Positions 6,893-23,515 of a stretch of 32,452 nucleotides of DNA are shown here, one piece after another. Each line of letters opens with the position of its first letter. Within the stretch, counting starts at the first letter, position 1. The notes below the pieces were generated by a model. It ran no database searches. It saw only the letters and a program-made list of their open reading frames with translations, and had not been told where the DNA came from. Source of the stretch: Pseudoxanthobacter soli DSM 19599 (GTDB lineage Bacteria; Pseudomonadota; Alphaproteobacteria; Rhizobiales; Segnochrobactraceae); assembly GCA_945898215.1 (NCBI GenBank), contig CAMDHY010000044.1, forward strand, positions 1 through 32,452, given 5' to 3'. The position numbers and the translations under genes were made by a program.

Positions 6893-6977
6893 GTCATTCC
6901 CGGGCTTGTCCCGGGAACCCATTGGCCGGCGACACCCGGGGTGAGGAATGGGTTCCCGGCACAAGGCCGGGAATGAC
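6893..6977. repeat. Nested palindromic intergenic element inside the carnitine operon
   Basis: Arms at 6893-6923 and 6947-6977 are 31 bases each and pair as reverse complements at 29 of 31 positions, around a 23-base centre. Each arm also contains its own perfect small hairpin: CCCGGG-CTTGT-CCCGGG on the left and CCCGGC-ACAAG-GCCGGG on the right. The two arm-to-arm mismatches fall exactly at the paired positions of these small hairpins. The element resembles the palindromic repeats scattered between genes in many Hyphomicrobiales genomes. No second copy was seen in this window. Confidence 0.8.
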
Positions 6978-7049
6978 TCCGAGGGAGTGGCCGGCCATGG
7001 AGACCTCACGCCGCCCTCCCCCAAAACCCTCAACAAACCGGACCCTCCC

Positions 7050-8519
7050 ATGCCCCTTCCCCTCAAGCGCGCGGCGGCGATCGGTGGCGGTGTCATCGGT
7101 GGCGGCTGGATCGCCCGGCTGCTGCTCAACGGCGTCGACGTCGCCGTGCACGACCCGAACCCCGAGGCACCGCGCCAGGTCGGCGAGATGCTGGCGAACG
7201 CCGCCCGCGCCTACGCCCGGCTGGGGCTGGCGCTGCCGCAGCGCGGAAATCTCTCCTTCCACCGCTCGATCGCCGAGGCGGTGGCGGGGGCCGAGATCGT
7301 CCAGGAGAGCGCGCCGGAACAGGAGGACCTCAAGATCCGCCTGCTCGCCGAGATCGACCGCCACGCGCCCATCGACGCCATCATCGGCTCGTCGACCTCC
7401 GGCCTGCTGCCGACGCGGCTGCAGGTCGAAATGCGCCACCCGGAGCGGCTGGTCGTCGCCCACCCGTTCAACCCGGTCTACCTCTTGCCGCTCGTCGAGA
7501 TCGTCGGCGGCGCGAAGACCTCGGCCGACGCCATCGCCCGCGCCAAGGCGATCTATGCCGGCCTCGGCATGAAGCCGCTGCACGTGCGCAAGGAAATCGA
7601 CGCCTTCATCGCCGACCGCATCCTCGAGGCCTACTGGCGTGAGGCGCTGTGGCTGGTCGCCGACGGCATCGCCACCGTGGAAGAGGTCGACGACGCCATC
7701 CGCTACGGCGCCGGCCTGCGCTGGGCGGCGATGGGCACCTTCCAGGTCTACCGCATCGCCGGCGGCGAGGCGGGCATGCGCCACTTCATCAGCCAGTTCG
7801 GACCGGCGCTGCAGTGGCCTTGGACGAAGCTGACCGACGTGCCGGAGCTCACCGACGGGCTCATCGACGAGATCACCGCACAGTCGGACGCCCAGGCCGG
7901 CGGCCTCGGCATCCGCGATCTCGAGCGCAAGCGCGACGACTGCCTGACGGCGATCCTGACGGCGCTGGAGGGCGAGGACTGGGGCGCCGGCGCCGTGCTC
8001 GCCGCCCAGCGCACCCGCCTCGCCGAGACGGTCGCGGCCGACCGGCCGGCGGCCCGCCCCCTCCCCCTGCACACCGCCACGGTGCCGCCGGAGTGGGTCG
8101 ACTACAACGGCCACATGACCGAGCACCGCTACCTGGAGGTGTTCGCCGACGCCTCCGACGCGCTCATCGCGAAGCTGGGGGTCGACGCCGCCTACCTGGC
8201 CGGCGGCCGCTCGCTCTACACGGTGGAGACGCGCATCCGCTATCTGCGCGAGGTGAAGGCGGGCGCCCGGCTCGCCGTCTCCACCTGGCTCCTCGGCCAC
8301 GACGACAAGCGCATCTCCTACGCCCACGAGATGAGCGACGCCGACAGCGGCGAGCCAGTCGCTACCGGCGAGCACATGCTCCTGCACGTCGACACTGTCG
8401 GCAGCCGCGCCACGCCGATGCCGGCGGAGATGATCGCCCGCCTCGTCGCGCTGGAGGCGGCGCACCGCCCGGCGTCCCCGCCGCGCTATGCCGGGCAAGG
8501 GATGAAGCCGCTCGCCTGA
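7050..8519 (+). CDS. L-carnitine dehydrogenase fused to a thioesterase (betainyl-CoA hydrolase)
   Basis: This 489-residue bifunctional protein has two domains. Residues about 1-325 are a 3-hydroxyacyl-CoA dehydrogenase-type oxidoreductase, with the NAD-binding glycine-rich motif IGGGVIGGGW at 11-20 and the family block VVAHPFNPVYLLPLVEIVGG. It should oxidise L-carnitine to 3-dehydrocarnitine. Residues about 338-480 form a hotdog-fold thioesterase beginning TVPPEWVDYNGHMTEHRYLE, the 4HBT signature. In characterised rhizobial carnitine pathways this fused domain hydrolyses betainyl-CoA to glycine betaine. With the upstream BKACE, the route from carnitine to glycine betaine is complete. The ATG at 7050 has little visible ribosome site. 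An upstream in-frame ATG at 6948 lies inside the palindromic element and would add 34 non-homologous residues. Confidence 0.88.
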   Translation: MPLPLKRAAAIGGGVIGGGWIARLLLNGVDVAVHDPNPEAPRQVGEMLANAARAYARLGLALPQRGNLSFHRSIAEAVAGAEIVQESAPEQEDLKIRLLAEIDRHAPIDAIIGSSTSGLLPTRLQVEMRHPERLVVAHPFNPVYLLPLVEIVGGAKTSADAIARAKAIYAGLGMKPLHVRKEIDAFIADRILEAYWREALWLVADGIATVEEVDDAIRYGAGLRWAAMGTFQVYRIAGGEAGMRHFISQFGPALQWPWTKLTDVPELTDGLIDEITAQSDAQAGGLGIRDLERKRDDCLTAILTALEGEDWGAGAVLAAQRTRLAETVAADRPAARPLPLHTATVPPEWVDYNGHMTEHRYLEVFADASDALIAKLGVDAAYLAGGRSLYTVETRIRYLREVKAGARLAVSTWLLGHDDKRISYAHEMSDADSGEPVATGEHMLLHVDTVGSRATPMPAEMIARLVALEAAHRPASPPRYAGQGMKPLA

Positions 8520-10882: not shown

Positions 10883-11069
10883 GGGCGCCGGATCGGCGGG
10901 TCGCGCACCGGCGGCCCCTTGCACTTTCGTCGGAAAGCCCGCGTCGGCATGCGCCTGAGGCTGGCCACCCGGCGGATCGTCCGCTACCGTCGAACAATTC
11001 GTCGCAGGCCAACTGCGCACTTTGGGAAACGAGCCGAGGCCGAACGGTCCGGCACCAGGGAGGTTCTTC

Positions 11070-12056
11070 ATGTCGATCACGCGCCGCTTCGCCCTCGCCG
11101 CCGGCTTCCTCGCCGCGGCGGCGCTGCCCGCCTTCGCCCAGGGCGACTATCCCTCCAAGCCGATCACGATGATCGTGCCGTTCGCCGCCGGCGGCCCGAC
11201 CGACACCATCGCCCGCATCGTCGGCGAGAACATGAGCAAGACGCTCGGCCAGCAGGTCGTCGTTGAGAACGTCGCCGGCGCCGGTGGCACCACCGGCTCG
11301 GCGCGGACAAAGGACGCGGCCAACGACGGCTAAACGATCATGATGGGCCACATGGGCACGCACGCGGCCTCGGTCGCGCTCTACCCGAACCTCGCCTACG
11401 ACCCGGCCGAGGATTTCGAGCCCGTCGGCCTCGCCGCCGGCACGCCGGTGCTCATCCTCGCCCGCAAGGACTTCCCGGCCGAGACGCTGGCCGAGTTCAT
11501 CGAGATCGCCAAGAAGGAAGGCTCGGCGCTGAACAACGCCAACGCCGGCATCGGCTCGGTGTCGCACGTGAGCTGCCTGTTCTTCAACGCGCTCACCGGC
11601 GCGAAGCCCACCGAGATTCCCTACAAGGGCACTGGCCCGGCGCTGAACGACCTGATGGCCGGACAGGTCGACTATCTCTGCGACCAGATCGTCAACGCAG
11701 CCCCGCAGATCCAGGCCGGCACGATCAAGGCCTATGCGATCGGCATCCCGGAGCGCTCGCCCGCCCTGCCGGACGTTCCCACCTCCGCCGAAGCCGGCCT
11801 GCCCGACTGGCAGGTGCAGGCGTGGAACGCCATCTTCGCGCCCGCCGGCACCGACCCGGCGATCGTCGCCAAGCTCTCCGCGGCCCTCGACACCGCCCTC
11901 GACGACGCGGCGGTGCAGAAGCGCTTGCTCGAGCTCGGCAGCGTCATCCCGGAGAAGAACCTGCGCACCTCCGACGGCCTCGGCGCCCACGTGAAGGCCG
12001 AGATCGCCAAGTGGTCGCCGATCATCAAGGAATCCGGCGTCACCGTCGGCAACTGA
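11070..12056 (+). pseudogene. TctC-type tripartite tricarboxylate transporter binding protein with in-frame stop
   Basis: The reading frame encodes a complete TctC-type periplasmic binding protein of 328 codons except for TAA at 11331-11333 (codon 88). Before it come a signal peptide (RRFALAAGFLAAAALPAFAQ) and the family block YPSKPITMIVPFAAGGPTDT. After it, in the same frame, come TIMMGHMGTHAASVALYPNL, EIPYKGTGPALNDLMAGQVD and a normal C-terminus. The stop replaces the conserved Tyr of 'DGYT', a one-base TAC/TAT to TAA change. The ATG at 11340 just after the stop has no ribosome site and would lack a signal peptide. The gene has a good ribosome site (GGGAGG) and intact tctB and tctA follow, so loss is recent, or it is a base error. 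Confidence 0.85.
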
Positions 12057-14150: not shown

Positions 14151-14275
14151 CTCATCCTGTGCGAAGCGCCGTAGGAAGGCGGCGCCGGCGACGTTCCGTC
14201 CGGGGGAGGTCGTTCGTGATGGTCGTTTCCGCACGGTGGCCTGTGGCTGACCACGTGCACAGAAGGAAGCGCCTC

Positions 14276-14650
14276 ATGCCGTTAGACGTCTCCCAGCAAT
14301 TCTCCCGACGTGCTCTCGTCGTTGCCTCGGCCGCCGCGCTGCTGGCAACCCCCGCCCTCGCCCACCACGGCTGGTCCTCCTACGATGCCAGCAAGGTGAT
14401 GACGATCGAGGGACCGATCCTTGCCGCCGACACCGGCTTCCCGCACGCCCACATCGCCCTCGAGCACGACGGCCGCCGCTGGGACATCGTACTGGCGCCG
14501 CCGTCGCGCATGACCGCCCGCGGCCTCGCCGAAGGTGCGCTCGCGGATGGCGTCGTCGTGCGGGTGGAGGGCTATCCGAGCACTGAGACGGAGTGGGAGC
14601 TCCGGGCGGAATCGATCACCGTGGACGGCAAGACGATCCCGCTGCGCTGA
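14276..14650 (+). CDS. Small exported His-rich protein, DUF6152-like
   Basis: This 124-residue exported protein has an N-terminal signal with twin arginines (FSRRALVVASAAALLATPAL). If cleaved after ALA, the mature chain starts HHGWSSYD, placing a histidine at its N-terminus. A second histidine cluster, GFPHAHIALEHDGRRW, follows, and the rest looks like a small beta-barrel ending in ESITVDGKTIPLR. I recognise it as the DUF6152 family, which has no established function. N-terminal histidine plus HxH is the type of arrangement used for copper in CopC and related histidine-brace proteins, so metal binding is a reasonable guess. The ATG at 14276 follows GAAGGAAG. Its stop overlaps the start of the next gene (TGATG). 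Confidence 0.75.
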   Translation: MPLDVSQQFSRRALVVASAAALLATPALAHHGWSSYDASKVMTIEGPILAADTGFPHAHIALEHDGRRWDIVLAPPSRMTARGLAEGALADGVVVRVEGYPSTETEWELRAESITVDGKTIPLR

Positions 14651-15138
14651 TGCACGTCGCCCACGGACCAGCCTGGGCCGTTGCGCTCGAGCAGTCGGGC
14701 CTCGGCGAACTGATGCGTTCGTCGGGGCTCCTCTATCCGCTCGCCAACGTTCTGCACGTCATGGCGATCTGCGCCGTGGTGGCGCCGATCGTCCTCGCCG
14801 ACCTGCGCCTCCTCGGCCTCGGGCGACGCTTTCCGCTGCGCCCGACGGAGGCGCTGCTGTCGGCGATCGCGGCCGGCGGCCTCGTCGTCGCCATCGTCAC
14901 CGGCATCCCGCTGTTCGCCGCCGACGCCGGGCCGCTCGCCACGAACCCGGTGATGGTGGTGAAGCTCGCCCTCCTGGCACTCGGGATCGCCAACGCCGTG
15001 CTGTTCCGCGTGCTGTGGAAGCACCATCTCGACGACTGGGACATCCTGGCGCCGCGGCTCGGCCGGGCACAGGCGGCGCTGTCGGCCGGCGTCTGGATCG
15101 CCGTCCCCGTGGCCGGTCGGCTCATCGCCTATCTCTGA
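14650..15138 (+). CDS. Four-helix membrane protein, DUF6644-like, partner of the exported His-rich protein
   Basis: This 162-residue protein has four predicted membrane helices, at about residues 27-53, 66-92, 98-120 and 140-161. His36 lies in helix 1 (LYPLANVLHVMAICAVVAP), and a WKHHLDDWD segment with two histidines follows helix 3. It looks like the family annotated DUF6644, which often accompanies DUF6152 genes. No function is known. Its start overlaps the stop of that gene (TGATG), so the two are almost certainly co-translated. Topology and pairing recall CopC/CopD, where an exported copper protein works with a multi-helix membrane protein. There is no clear sequence identity to CopD that I can show. 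Confidence 0.7.
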   Translation: MHVAHGPAWAVALEQSGLGELMRSSGLLYPLANVLHVMAICAVVAPIVLADLRLLGLGRRFPLRPTEALLSAIAAGGLVVAIVTGIPLFAADAGPLATNPVMVVKLALLALGIANAVLFRVLWKHHLDDWDILAPRLGRAQAALSAGVWIAVPVAGRLIAYL

Positions 15139-22333: not shown

Positions 22334-23515
22334 TCAGGAGCAGCGCAGCAGCGACCGCTTCCGCTCGGCCTCCGCCACCGGCTGGAACAGCCCGGTCGTC
22401 TGATCCCGCACGAGCAGCCGGCCGGTCGAGACGGAGAACAGGGCTCCGTGCAGGGCGAGCTGGCCCGCCTCGACCCGGGCCCGCACGAACGGGAACGTCA
22501 TCAGGTTGCGCAATCCGAGGTCGACGGTGGCGAACTCGAGCCGGCGCAGGAAGTCGTGGAAGTCCTGCCCCTTGCGGGGGCCGAGGCGCTCGGCCGCCGG
22601 GGCGATCTGCGACATCCAGCGGCCGATGAAATCGCCGGGCGAGAGCGGCTGCTGCTCGTCCGCATAGGCCCGCACGCCGCCGCACAGGGCATGGCCGAGG
22701 ACGACGATGTGCCGGACGCGCAGCGCCTGCACGCCGAACTCCAGCGCCGCGCTGGTGCCGTGCTGGGAATCAGCGTCCGCCTCGTAGGCCGGGATGAGGT
22801 TCGCGACGTTGCGGACCACAAGCAGCTCGCCCGGCGCAGCATCGAAGATCACTTCCGGCGAGACGCGGGAATCGACGCAGCCCACCACCATGATTTCCGG
22901 GCGCTGGCCGCGTTCGGCCAGCATCTCGTAGCGCGCGCGCTCGCTGGAGAAGCGTCCGTCGAGGAACGCCTGATATCCTGCCGTGAGCCGGTCGGGAAAC
23001 ATCCTGAGGCCTTCCGTCGACGTCTTTGGGGGGGGCGTGCCCCCGCTCAGGGCTCGCCGGAGGGGGTTGGGGTCCGCGAAGTTCTCGCGAACGCCGGCGA
23101 CGGCCGCGCCGAGCTGCAGGAAATCGGCTGACAGGCGTGCATGCAAGGAAGCAGCCACGTCTGGATACTCTTCGAGGAGGCGTTTGAACACCACCCGTCG
23201 CACCAGCATCACCTCGCTCGGCCGCGTCGCGCGGGCCTCGACGACGAGGTCGGTCTCGGCGAGCAGGGCGAGCTGGGCGATCATGGCGCCGGGGCCGGCC
23301 GGCTGCGAGGCGCGGCAGCCGGCGGCACGCACCTCGATCAACCCCGTCAGCACGACGAACGCGCCCGGCGGCGCTTGCCCGGCCTCGATCAGGAGGCCGC
23401 CGGCCGGCAGGCCCAGCCGCTCGCCGGAGAATGCCACCAGCCGCAGTTGCTCGTCGGTGAGCGCGGCGAACGGTGGGGCGAGGCGCAACAGCGCGAGGTC
23501 GCTCGACAGGCTCAT
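22334..23515 (-). CDS. Cyclic-nucleotide-binding domain fused to beta-carbonic anhydrase
   Basis: This 393-residue open frame joins two modules. Residues about 1-150 form a Crp/cNMP-binding beta-roll (LPAGGLLIEAGQAPPGAFVV, then MIAQLALLAETDLVVEARA) without a DNA-binding domain. Residues 172-393 form a full beta-class carbonic anhydrase: VVGCVDSRVSPEVIF supplies the Zn cysteine and the Asp-Arg pair, and VVLGHALCGGVRAY supplies the His and Cys ligands. The linker (residues 150-171) is encoded by sequence that looks intergenic: a C8 run, a GGGGG-CACG-CCCCC hairpin, and GGAAGG seven bases before an ATG at 23002. The carbonic anhydrase may therefore also start there as a separate 222-residue protein. 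It follows the response regulator gene by 61 bases on the same strand. Confidence 0.85.
   Translation of the reverse strand: MSLSSDLALLRLAPPFAALTDEQLRLVAFSGERLGLPAGGLLIEAGQAPPGAFVVLTGLIEVRAAGCRASQPAGPGAMIAQLALLAETDLVVEARATRPSEVMLVRRVVFKRLLEEYPDVAASLHARLSADFLQLGAAVAGVRENFADPNPLRRALSGGTPPPKTSTEGLRMFPDRLTAGYQAFLDGRFSSERARYEMLAERGQRPEIMVVGCVDSRVSPEVIFDAAPGELLVVRNVANLIPAYEADADSQHGTSAALEFGVQALRVRHIVVLGHALCGGVRAYADEQQPLSPGDFIGRWMSQIAPAAERLGPRKGQDFHDFLRRLEFATVDLGLRNLMTFPFVRARVEAGQLALHGALFSVSTGRLLVRDQTTGLFQPVAEAERKRSLLRCS

Follow-up and report, generated by a model that had tools for sequence, protein, structure and literature searches.

Do the two overlapping genes at positions 14276 to 15138 of contig CAMDHY010000044.1 of Pseudoxanthobacter soli DSM 19599 encode a metal-handling system? 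The window, by which we mean the whole stretch of 32,452 nucleotides that was analyzed, carries at this place a gene for a small exported, histidine-rich protein (gene 1) and a gene for a membrane protein (gene 2). From the letters alone, a sequence-only reading had compared them with the copper-binding CopC protein and its membrane partner CopD. We propose that this central guess probably survives in a changed form: gene 1 is no CopC relative, but the pair would be a functional parallel with a CopD-like partner. The locus is composed of the following features.

14261-14269, forward strand: stretch resembling a ribosome-binding site, AGAAGGAAG, 6 nt 5' of the gene 1 ATG, as judged from the sequence
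14276-14650, forward strand: gene 1, exported DUF6152 protein of 124 aa (Pfam PF19649) with an OB-fold-like AlphaFold2 model
14276-14362, forward strand: predicted signal peptide of gene 1, MPLDVSQQFSRRALVVASAAALLATPALA, 29 codons ending in ALA, with a twin arginine (SRR) at residues 10-12
14363-14374, forward strand: HHGW (His30, His31, Gly32, Trp33), predicted mature N-terminus of the gene 1 product
14441-14446, forward strand: Pro56-His57 of gene 1 (His28 of the mature protein), invariant in the alignments
14650-15138, forward strand: gene 2, four-helix membrane protein of 162 aa, divergent DUF6644-like and a remote CopD relative
14755-14757, forward strand: codon of His36 of gene 2, invariant, in helix 1, presumably in its periplasmic part
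14962-14964, forward strand: codon of Lys105 of gene 2, invariant, near the presumed periplasmic start of helix 3

Both are real overlapping genes. Their coordinates and frames were verified, and gene 2 indeed starts within the stop codon of gene 1, as the sequence-only reading had stated: its ATG shares the last A of the TGA, giving an overlap of 1 nt. Gene 1 is present as a single copy in the host genome (search at E up to 0.01). The pair is preceded by TctC- and TctA-type transporter genes and followed, on the opposite strand, by genes for CBS and rhomboid proteins; no metal system is found among these flanking genes of the window. The TctC receptor gene itself (11022-12056, forward strand) consists of two frames in the same phase (11022-11333 and 11340-12056) that match profile positions 1-41 and 53-273, respectively, and seems to be damaged or broken by a stop. 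Two fusions in the window are a 393-aa frame combining a cyclic-nucleotide-binding domain with a carbonic anhydrase (22334-23515, reverse strand; PF00027, PF00484) and a 4HBT thioesterase domain fused to a 3-hydroxyacyl-CoA dehydrogenase (6948-8519, forward strand).

Gene 1 belongs to the DUF6152 family, with 38.8 bits against a Pfam cut-off of 27, and PF19649 is matched by all 78 aligned gene 1 rows at E up to 1. Pfam lists both DUF6152 and DUF6644 (PF20349), the family to which gene 2 is related, as being of unknown function, and NCBIfam offers no name for either gene. Cleavage of the signal peptide is predicted after ALA, so the mature protein would start with His1-His2-Gly-Trp. This fits cleavage by signal peptidase directly before His1, as judged from all 49 PF19649 matches in a scan of 299 genomes of the phylum (31 genomes with matches; the PF19649 profile itself covers the HH region). 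Here, His-His directly follows the predicted cleavage site in 49/49 cases, preceded by Ala (48) or Ser (1) at position -1 and by A (40), S (3), V (2), G (2), T (1) or L (1) at position -3. The sequence-only claim of a mature N-terminal histidine is thereby upheld at the level of sequence. A Pro-His dipeptide at mature position 25-29 is likewise present in each of the 49 proteins, and the mature part spans 94-123 residues in 45 of them. The HHGW tetrapeptide, the conservation of which the sequence-only reading had made a point of its proposal, is a subfamily trait: HH is universal, yet HHGW occurs in 27 matches next to 12 with HHSF and 10 others. Trp4 is missing from the 22 non-HHGW proteins, which counts against the metal module proposed below.

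The alignments point to the same residues. H30, H31 and H57 are found in 78/78 rows of alignment A4, the rows of which were chosen by a motif containing H30 and H31 but not H57, and in 15/15 rows of alignment A1. Of the histidine cluster PHAHIALEH (residues 56-64), which had been read as a unit, only the first histidine holds, while H59 is present in 29 and H64 in 35 of the 78 rows. In a similar way, the twin arginine is present in the signal of the window protein, but an RR pair occurs in only 17/78 rows of A4; Tat export is therefore not the rule for the DUF6152 family.

The coupling to a membrane partner, also part of the sequence-only reading, turned out to be tight. In a set of 80 loci, the best 80 of 459 relatives in the named genome collection, the partner gene lies directly 3' of the gene 1 homologue on the same strand in 77 cases, and the contigs of the remaining three end 116-371 nt past the gene 1 homologue. 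These loci were collected with the pattern AHHGW[SG][STG]Y, and the corresponding columns are consequently no proof of conservation within this set. The 19 HHGW-type loci L011-L029 (L027 being the window) all have a hydrophobic partner-type gene 3' of gene 1. Across the 299 genomes, PF19649 is present in 31 and the partner profile in 33, with both in 30 (Fisher p about 1e-36). DUF6152 stands alone in one genome (G010) and the partner in three, of which two have weak matches (G099, G151). The third (G277) has a DUF6152 gene at 26.2 bits, just below the cut-off, directly 5' of the partner; its product, found via the partner, reads AMA, then HHGW, and contains PPHP. The order of the pair is reversed in two genomes (G019, G246). 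PF20349 itself is found in only 21/299 genomes and misses the window's own partner. The pair is a conserved unit, beyond chance. The pairwise identities of the two proteins mirror each other (r 0.73 over 74 loci), a value left unused as evidence since shared descent explains it.

The pair occurs across Pseudomonadota and in a few records of the Myxococcus group and Rokubacteria. Hosts among the best 80 of 459 relatives comprise Methylopila, Microvirga, Azospirillum, Pseudomonas, Caballeronia, Luteimonas and Myxococcus, as well as one Mycobacterium-labelled record and a Rokubacteria MAG. The 1-nt overlap recurs in Azospirillum ramasamyi, where the RefSeq-derived labels are DUF6152 and DUF6644, and in a Sinorhizobium meliloti record with DUF6152 followed by a gene labelled 'DUF2214'. 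The pair had been put forward as possibly undescribed. It already has its Pfam families and RefSeq labels, but no paper naming DUF6152 or DUF6644 was found in the open-licence papers searched. Within the same papers their Pfam numbers were not found, HHGW appeared only in papers unrelated by title, 'histidine brace' and 'OB-fold' were never found together, and a search for OB-fold copper proteins with an export signal and an N-terminal His brought up no paper that concerns DUF6152 by title or start of the abstract.

The AlphaFold2 model of gene 1 is a small, largely beta-stranded domain with a short helix and a mean pLDDT of 86.9; block means are 59 for residues 21-30, 85 for residues 31-40 and 92-98 from residue 41 onward. 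Structural matches include a lysyl-tRNA synthetase domain (Foldseek, E 1.0e-4), PriB (4apv; VIA-align 2, Z 9.7, rmsd 2.2, 76 aligned) and SSB, all of which we take to be OB-folds. At the sequence level, the Pfam OB-fold nucleic acid binding domain is matched by 5 of the 78 gene 1 rows (best E 0.0038), weakly supporting this assignment, and DUF5666 by 21 (best E 0.0021), as seen in 25 of the 28 families matched. The model thus resembles an OB-fold. When the PDB was searched by sequence, the two proteins gave one weak match apiece, at E 0.02 to a 3-dehydroquinate dehydratase and at E 0.51 to a calcium-channel subunit. CusF (PF11604) is a periplasmic OB-fold copper chaperone and was considered as a relative. 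CusF shares with gene 1 the small periplasmic barrel, but an MTM stretch present in 11/13 CusF rows is missing from gene 1, the CusF profile does not match gene 1 in Pfam, and hhalign gave a probability of 3-4% over 13-16 columns (p 0.011-0.014). Kinship with CusF was accordingly ruled out.

Gene 2 matches a single Pfam family, DUF6644, over residues 14-161 with 19 bits and E 0.0016, below the cut-off of 27. It is a divergent relative of DUF6644 by sequence and not a member by cut-off. The corresponding profile PF20349 is matched by 68 of 76 partner rows at E up to 1 (best 2.9e-11). Our own partner profile A2, which includes the gene 2 protein itself, recovers gene 2 at E 2.9e-51. Among 25 of the 27 Pfam families matched by the 76 rows, DUF2214 (9 rows, best 4.1e-5), DUF2269 (9 rows, best 0.018) and DUF7139 (12 rows, best 4.2e-4) are also present. 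DUF2214 (PF09980) was dropped as a yardstick, given its presence in only 1/61 genomes, too few for a profile.

The model of gene 2 (mean pLDDT 95.8) consists of four helices (28-54, 63-91, 100-133, 136-161), with His36 in helix 1 as the sequence-only reading had placed it; the WKHH stretch (123-126) lies within the far end of helix 3 instead of after it. WKHH is also no conserved feature, as H125 is found in 8 and H126 in 6 of 76 partner rows. His36, on the other hand, is the one invariant histidine among these rows (76/76) and is kept in 15/15 rows of a second set and in 16/16 letters present in a set of DUF6644-like duos (1 gap). Lys105 is retained in 75/75 letters present (1 gap), 15/15 and 17/17, respectively. 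The next-best internal His or Met residues are Met22 (31/76) and His120 (29/76), and position 45 is Gly in 75/76 rows and Ala in the window protein. Lys plus Arg average 2.30 in loop 1 and 3.87 in loop 3 over the 76 rows, compared to 1.25 at the N-terminus and 0.59 in loop 2. This charge bias suggests that the N-terminus and loop 2 face outward while loops 1 and 3 face the cell interior, so that both termini would be periplasmic, a topology that would bring His36, Lys105 and Arg157 into the periplasmic half.

The sequence-only reading had named CopC, CopD and cytochrome b561 as folds for comparison. CopC is not among the 50 matches listed per search (Foldseek, VIA-align 2) for the gene 1 model, nor is CopD among those for gene 2, neither of which is proof of absence. 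Foldseek returned no significant match for gene 2 (best E 1.4). In a second-look comparison, gene 2 aligned to cytochrome bd subunit A (Z 11.3, rmsd 3.1, 135 aligned), cytochrome b561 (Z 9.2, rmsd 3.6, 131 aligned) and STEAP4 (Z 8.0, rmsd 4.5, 131 aligned), while de novo designed bundles scored 10.0, 9.9 and 9.8; for helical bundles, a Z under about 13 may reflect a common arrangement only.

The analogy with CopC and CopD held in part. Gene 1 was ruled out as a CopC member: at E up to 1 its only Pfam match is DUF6152, hhalign against 10 CopC rows gave a probability of 0.2-0.3%, and the model is OB-fold-like. What it appears to share with CopC is the combination of a histidine at the predicted mature N-terminus and an internal histidine. 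Gene 2 of the window has no match to CopD (PF05425) at E up to 1, a threshold at which 4 of 76 partner rows do match (best 1.4e-4). Aligned by hhalign to 9 CopD rows, the partner profile scored p 6.5e-5 over 101 columns, against a best p of 0.0066 over 15 columns for 21 hydrophobic control clusters, some of which may be antisense frames and no real proteins. In this alignment, His36, position 45 in helix 1, Gly85 and Lys105 coincide with invariant CopD positions, whereas a second invariant histidine of the CopD rows (SGHA) is without counterpart. Because the hhalign probability amounts to 42-64%, homology between partner and CopD is likely but unproven. A comparison with rows that we take to be HemJ gave 0.4-1.7%; a HemJ-like partner was ruled out as evidence, although one such alignment has His36 and Lys105 at comparable positions.

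The pair does not stand in for CopC. A true CopC-CopD fusion is encoded elsewhere in the host genome (556-aa frame, G000:C51:17021-18181), and 15 of the 299 genomes contain both DUF6152 (31 in total) and CopC (72 in total; p 0.002), one of them (G200) with a weak CopC match within a very long frame. The idea of a replacement was ruled out by this co-occurrence above chance, neither protein simply replacing the other.

Taken together, the pair looks like an undescribed metal-capture system, and we rate the chances as even that gene 1 and gene 2 form a self-contained metal-handling module. In the proposed mechanism, the gene 1 product would be exported and cleaved after ALA, a cleavage supported by conservation, to expose His1-His2-Gly-Trp on a small predicted OB-fold barrel. 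The amino group and ring of His1, with the invariant His28, may hold one divalent metal in the style of a histidine brace, the residues for which are present and invariant in the gene 1 sequences; His2, or Trp4 in the HHGW class, could shape the site. Cu2+ would be the most likely metal, with Ni2+ or Zn2+ as possibilities. The gene 2 product, a four-helix inner-membrane protein with both ends presumably periplasmic according to its charge bias, may offer a CopD-like site of His36, Lys105 and Arg157 near the periplasmic face, as conservation and the remote CopD match suggest. The loaded gene 1 product would dock there and hand over its metal, which might serve uptake or the metalation of membrane or periplasmic enzymes. 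Several observations count against a metal module: the genes around the HHGW pairs covered show no recurrent metal system, the CopD relation of gene 2 is remote, HHSF-type relatives have other neighbors, the histidine tip is the lower-confidence part of the gene 1 model, and His-His at positions 1-2 is unusual. That DUF6152 carries an OB-fold site of the histidine-brace type and constitutes, together with DUF6644, a third class of Cu (or Ni/Zn) delivery from periplasm to membrane beside CopC-CopD and DUF1775-CopD is a more tentative proposal, which we consider rather doubtful. If the metal reading is true, a testable function could be assigned to two Pfam DUF families that occur as a pair in many bacteria, among them the plant-associated Sinorhizobium and Azospirillum, and the arrangement of an N-terminal histidine with CopD would extend to a scaffold beyond CopC and DUF1775.

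By analogy, the pair is probably a functional parallel of CopC/CopD, YcnI/YcnJ and the anglerases on a different scaffold. Similar to CopC/CopD and the fused YcnJ (PF04234, PF05425), an exported N-terminal-His protein is coupled to a polytopic membrane protein, and 9/10 CopC rows from related genomes likewise begin their CopC match with Ala-His. Unlike these, gene 1 has an OB-fold-like model, and gene 2, with its four long helices, is no more than a remote relative of CopD. In vivo, YcnJ is reported to require His24 of its CopC part and the conserved membrane His295 of its CopD part (PMC13344008). The monohistidine brace of YcnI combines its N-terminal His with a Glu and a conserved Trp (PMC12362106). 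YcnI (DUF1775) thus shares with gene 1 the N-terminal His, a conserved Trp and an adjoining CopD protein (PMC12362106), but has a cupredoxin-like fold as opposed to the OB-fold-like model, and in DUF6152 Trp4 is limited to the HHGW class. A broader precedent is the work on signal strapping, which describes N-terminal-His binders of Cu or Ni, some fused or tied to permeases, in which a conserved His after the signal peptide binds the metal with a Kd of tens of nanomolar (PMC12537917). The anglerases Ang-1 and Ang-2 with HupE/UreJ-2, DUF4198 and DUF6702 have such a conserved His after signal cleavage, and the Ang domains are linked to a membrane permease as gene 1 is to its partner (PMC12537917). 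Ang-1 differs in being a beta-sandwich fused to HupE (PMC12537917); DUF6152 stands as a protein of its own, modelled as OB-fold-like, beside a CopD-like partner. The screen in that study discarded candidates with a second ligand at position 2, and its main text does not name DUF6152 (PMC12537917).

The surroundings of the pair, which the sequence-only reading had proposed to survey along with co-occurrence, yield no recurring neighbor. The largest Pfam families among 150 of 157 neighbor genes, drawn from 42 taxon groups, have at most four members, and none of the 25 of 157 Pfam families listed for the neighbors of HHGW pairs is a metal system. Among the genes called in the 80 loci, a regex scan picked up a single multicopper-oxidase-like gene and not one P-type ATPase (gene calls here and for the HHSF-type loci were made with a home-made GC3 method). 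After the pair itself, the largest neighbor cluster comes from 57 loci, where it occupies the same place on the opposite strand, and resembles an antisense frame; further clusters comprise 20 and 16 loci at other distances. Metal-linked neighbors are confined to single loci (siderophore-type ABC genes; TonB receptors; ZnuA, DUF6162 and DUF4198). The neighborhood neither proves nor refutes metal handling.

Three other explanations have to be weighed against the metal module. It is improbable, in our estimate, that the pair is a membrane redox module, with the partner as a binder of heme b or a quinone and the OB-fold protein as a periplasmic relay for electrons or a small ligand; in the heme version His36 would be a single axial ligand and Lys105 and Arg157 would face the propionates. 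Several of the closest second-look structures are indeed redox membrane proteins (cytochrome bd subunit A, b561, STEAP4), and HHSF-type DUF6152 genes and DUF6644 duos adjoin PQQ dehydrogenases (L155, L160), with one duo, in L150, adjoining a cytochrome c'. The de novo bundles score alike, however, Foldseek reaches no better than its insignificant best match, the paired heme-ligand histidines of b561 and b-type cytochromes are absent with a lone invariant His in 76 partner rows, and none of the 25 of 157 families listed gives HHGW pairs a recurring redox context. The PQQ dehydrogenases can also be read differently, with the pair as a factor that helps to assemble or metalate an enzyme of the periplasm or the membrane, such as a PQQ dehydrogenase or an oxidase, instead of an uptake system. 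The support of heme-copper oxidases by YcnJ (PMC13344008) would agree with this, but the HHGW pair has no constant enzyme neighbor, no Pfam family exceeding four of the 150 genes, and we grant such a factor very little probability.

We also find it unlikely, to much the same degree as the redox module, that the His-His and Pro-His motifs serve docking or a non-metal ligand and that the module is a sensor or a transporter for some small compound, organic or anionic. Most structural matches of gene 1 are proteins that bind nucleic acids (PriB, SSB, LysRS), and Arg78, Arg82, Arg110 and Arg124 of gene 1, conserved in the HHGW subclass, could form an anion site, which Arg23, Lys105 and Arg157 of gene 2, conserved in the same subclass, could join. 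The missing metal context among the 80 loci and the 25 of 157 neighbor families listed fits in as well. Against this, the four arginines of gene 1 lose their invariance in the wider set of 15 rows, and a histidine right after the predicted cleavage site in 49/49 proteins is a trait of published metal chelators that is needless for ordinary docking.

Beside the HHGW class to which the window belongs, the HHSF-type DUF6152 proteins, of which some genomes have multiple copies, show settings of their own. They adjoin PQQ dehydrogenases (L155, L160) or hydrolases (L147, L155), and in L155 and L160 also a protein of ~290-300 aa without Pfam match, with DUF6644 tandem duos nearby; a Novosphingobium plasmid has a similar layout, its neighbor genes carrying no names. 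Four proteins of ~260-300 aa that are alike by eye (L155 11716-12591, L148 6615-7481, L160 11590-12501, L147 7677-8459) adjoin HHSF-type DUF6152 and have no Pfam match at E up to 0.001, and in G288 DUF6152 continues into a similar stretch within a single 385-aa frame. Tandem DUF6644-like duos, such as the one adjoining cytochrome c' in L150, are present in L148, L150, L151, L152, L155 and L160; the otherwise invariant Asp51 is replaced in some of them (kept in 10/17 duo rows), while His36 and Lys105 stay. Finally, the DUF6152 locus L147 of G286 lies beside RND efflux, DUF6162, ZnuA, ABC and DUF4198 genes, and within its segment 10905-16405 a DUF6644 duo precedes genes of the DUF6162, ZnuA and ABC types and DUF4198, the last of these a reported N-terminal-His nickel binder (PMC12537917).
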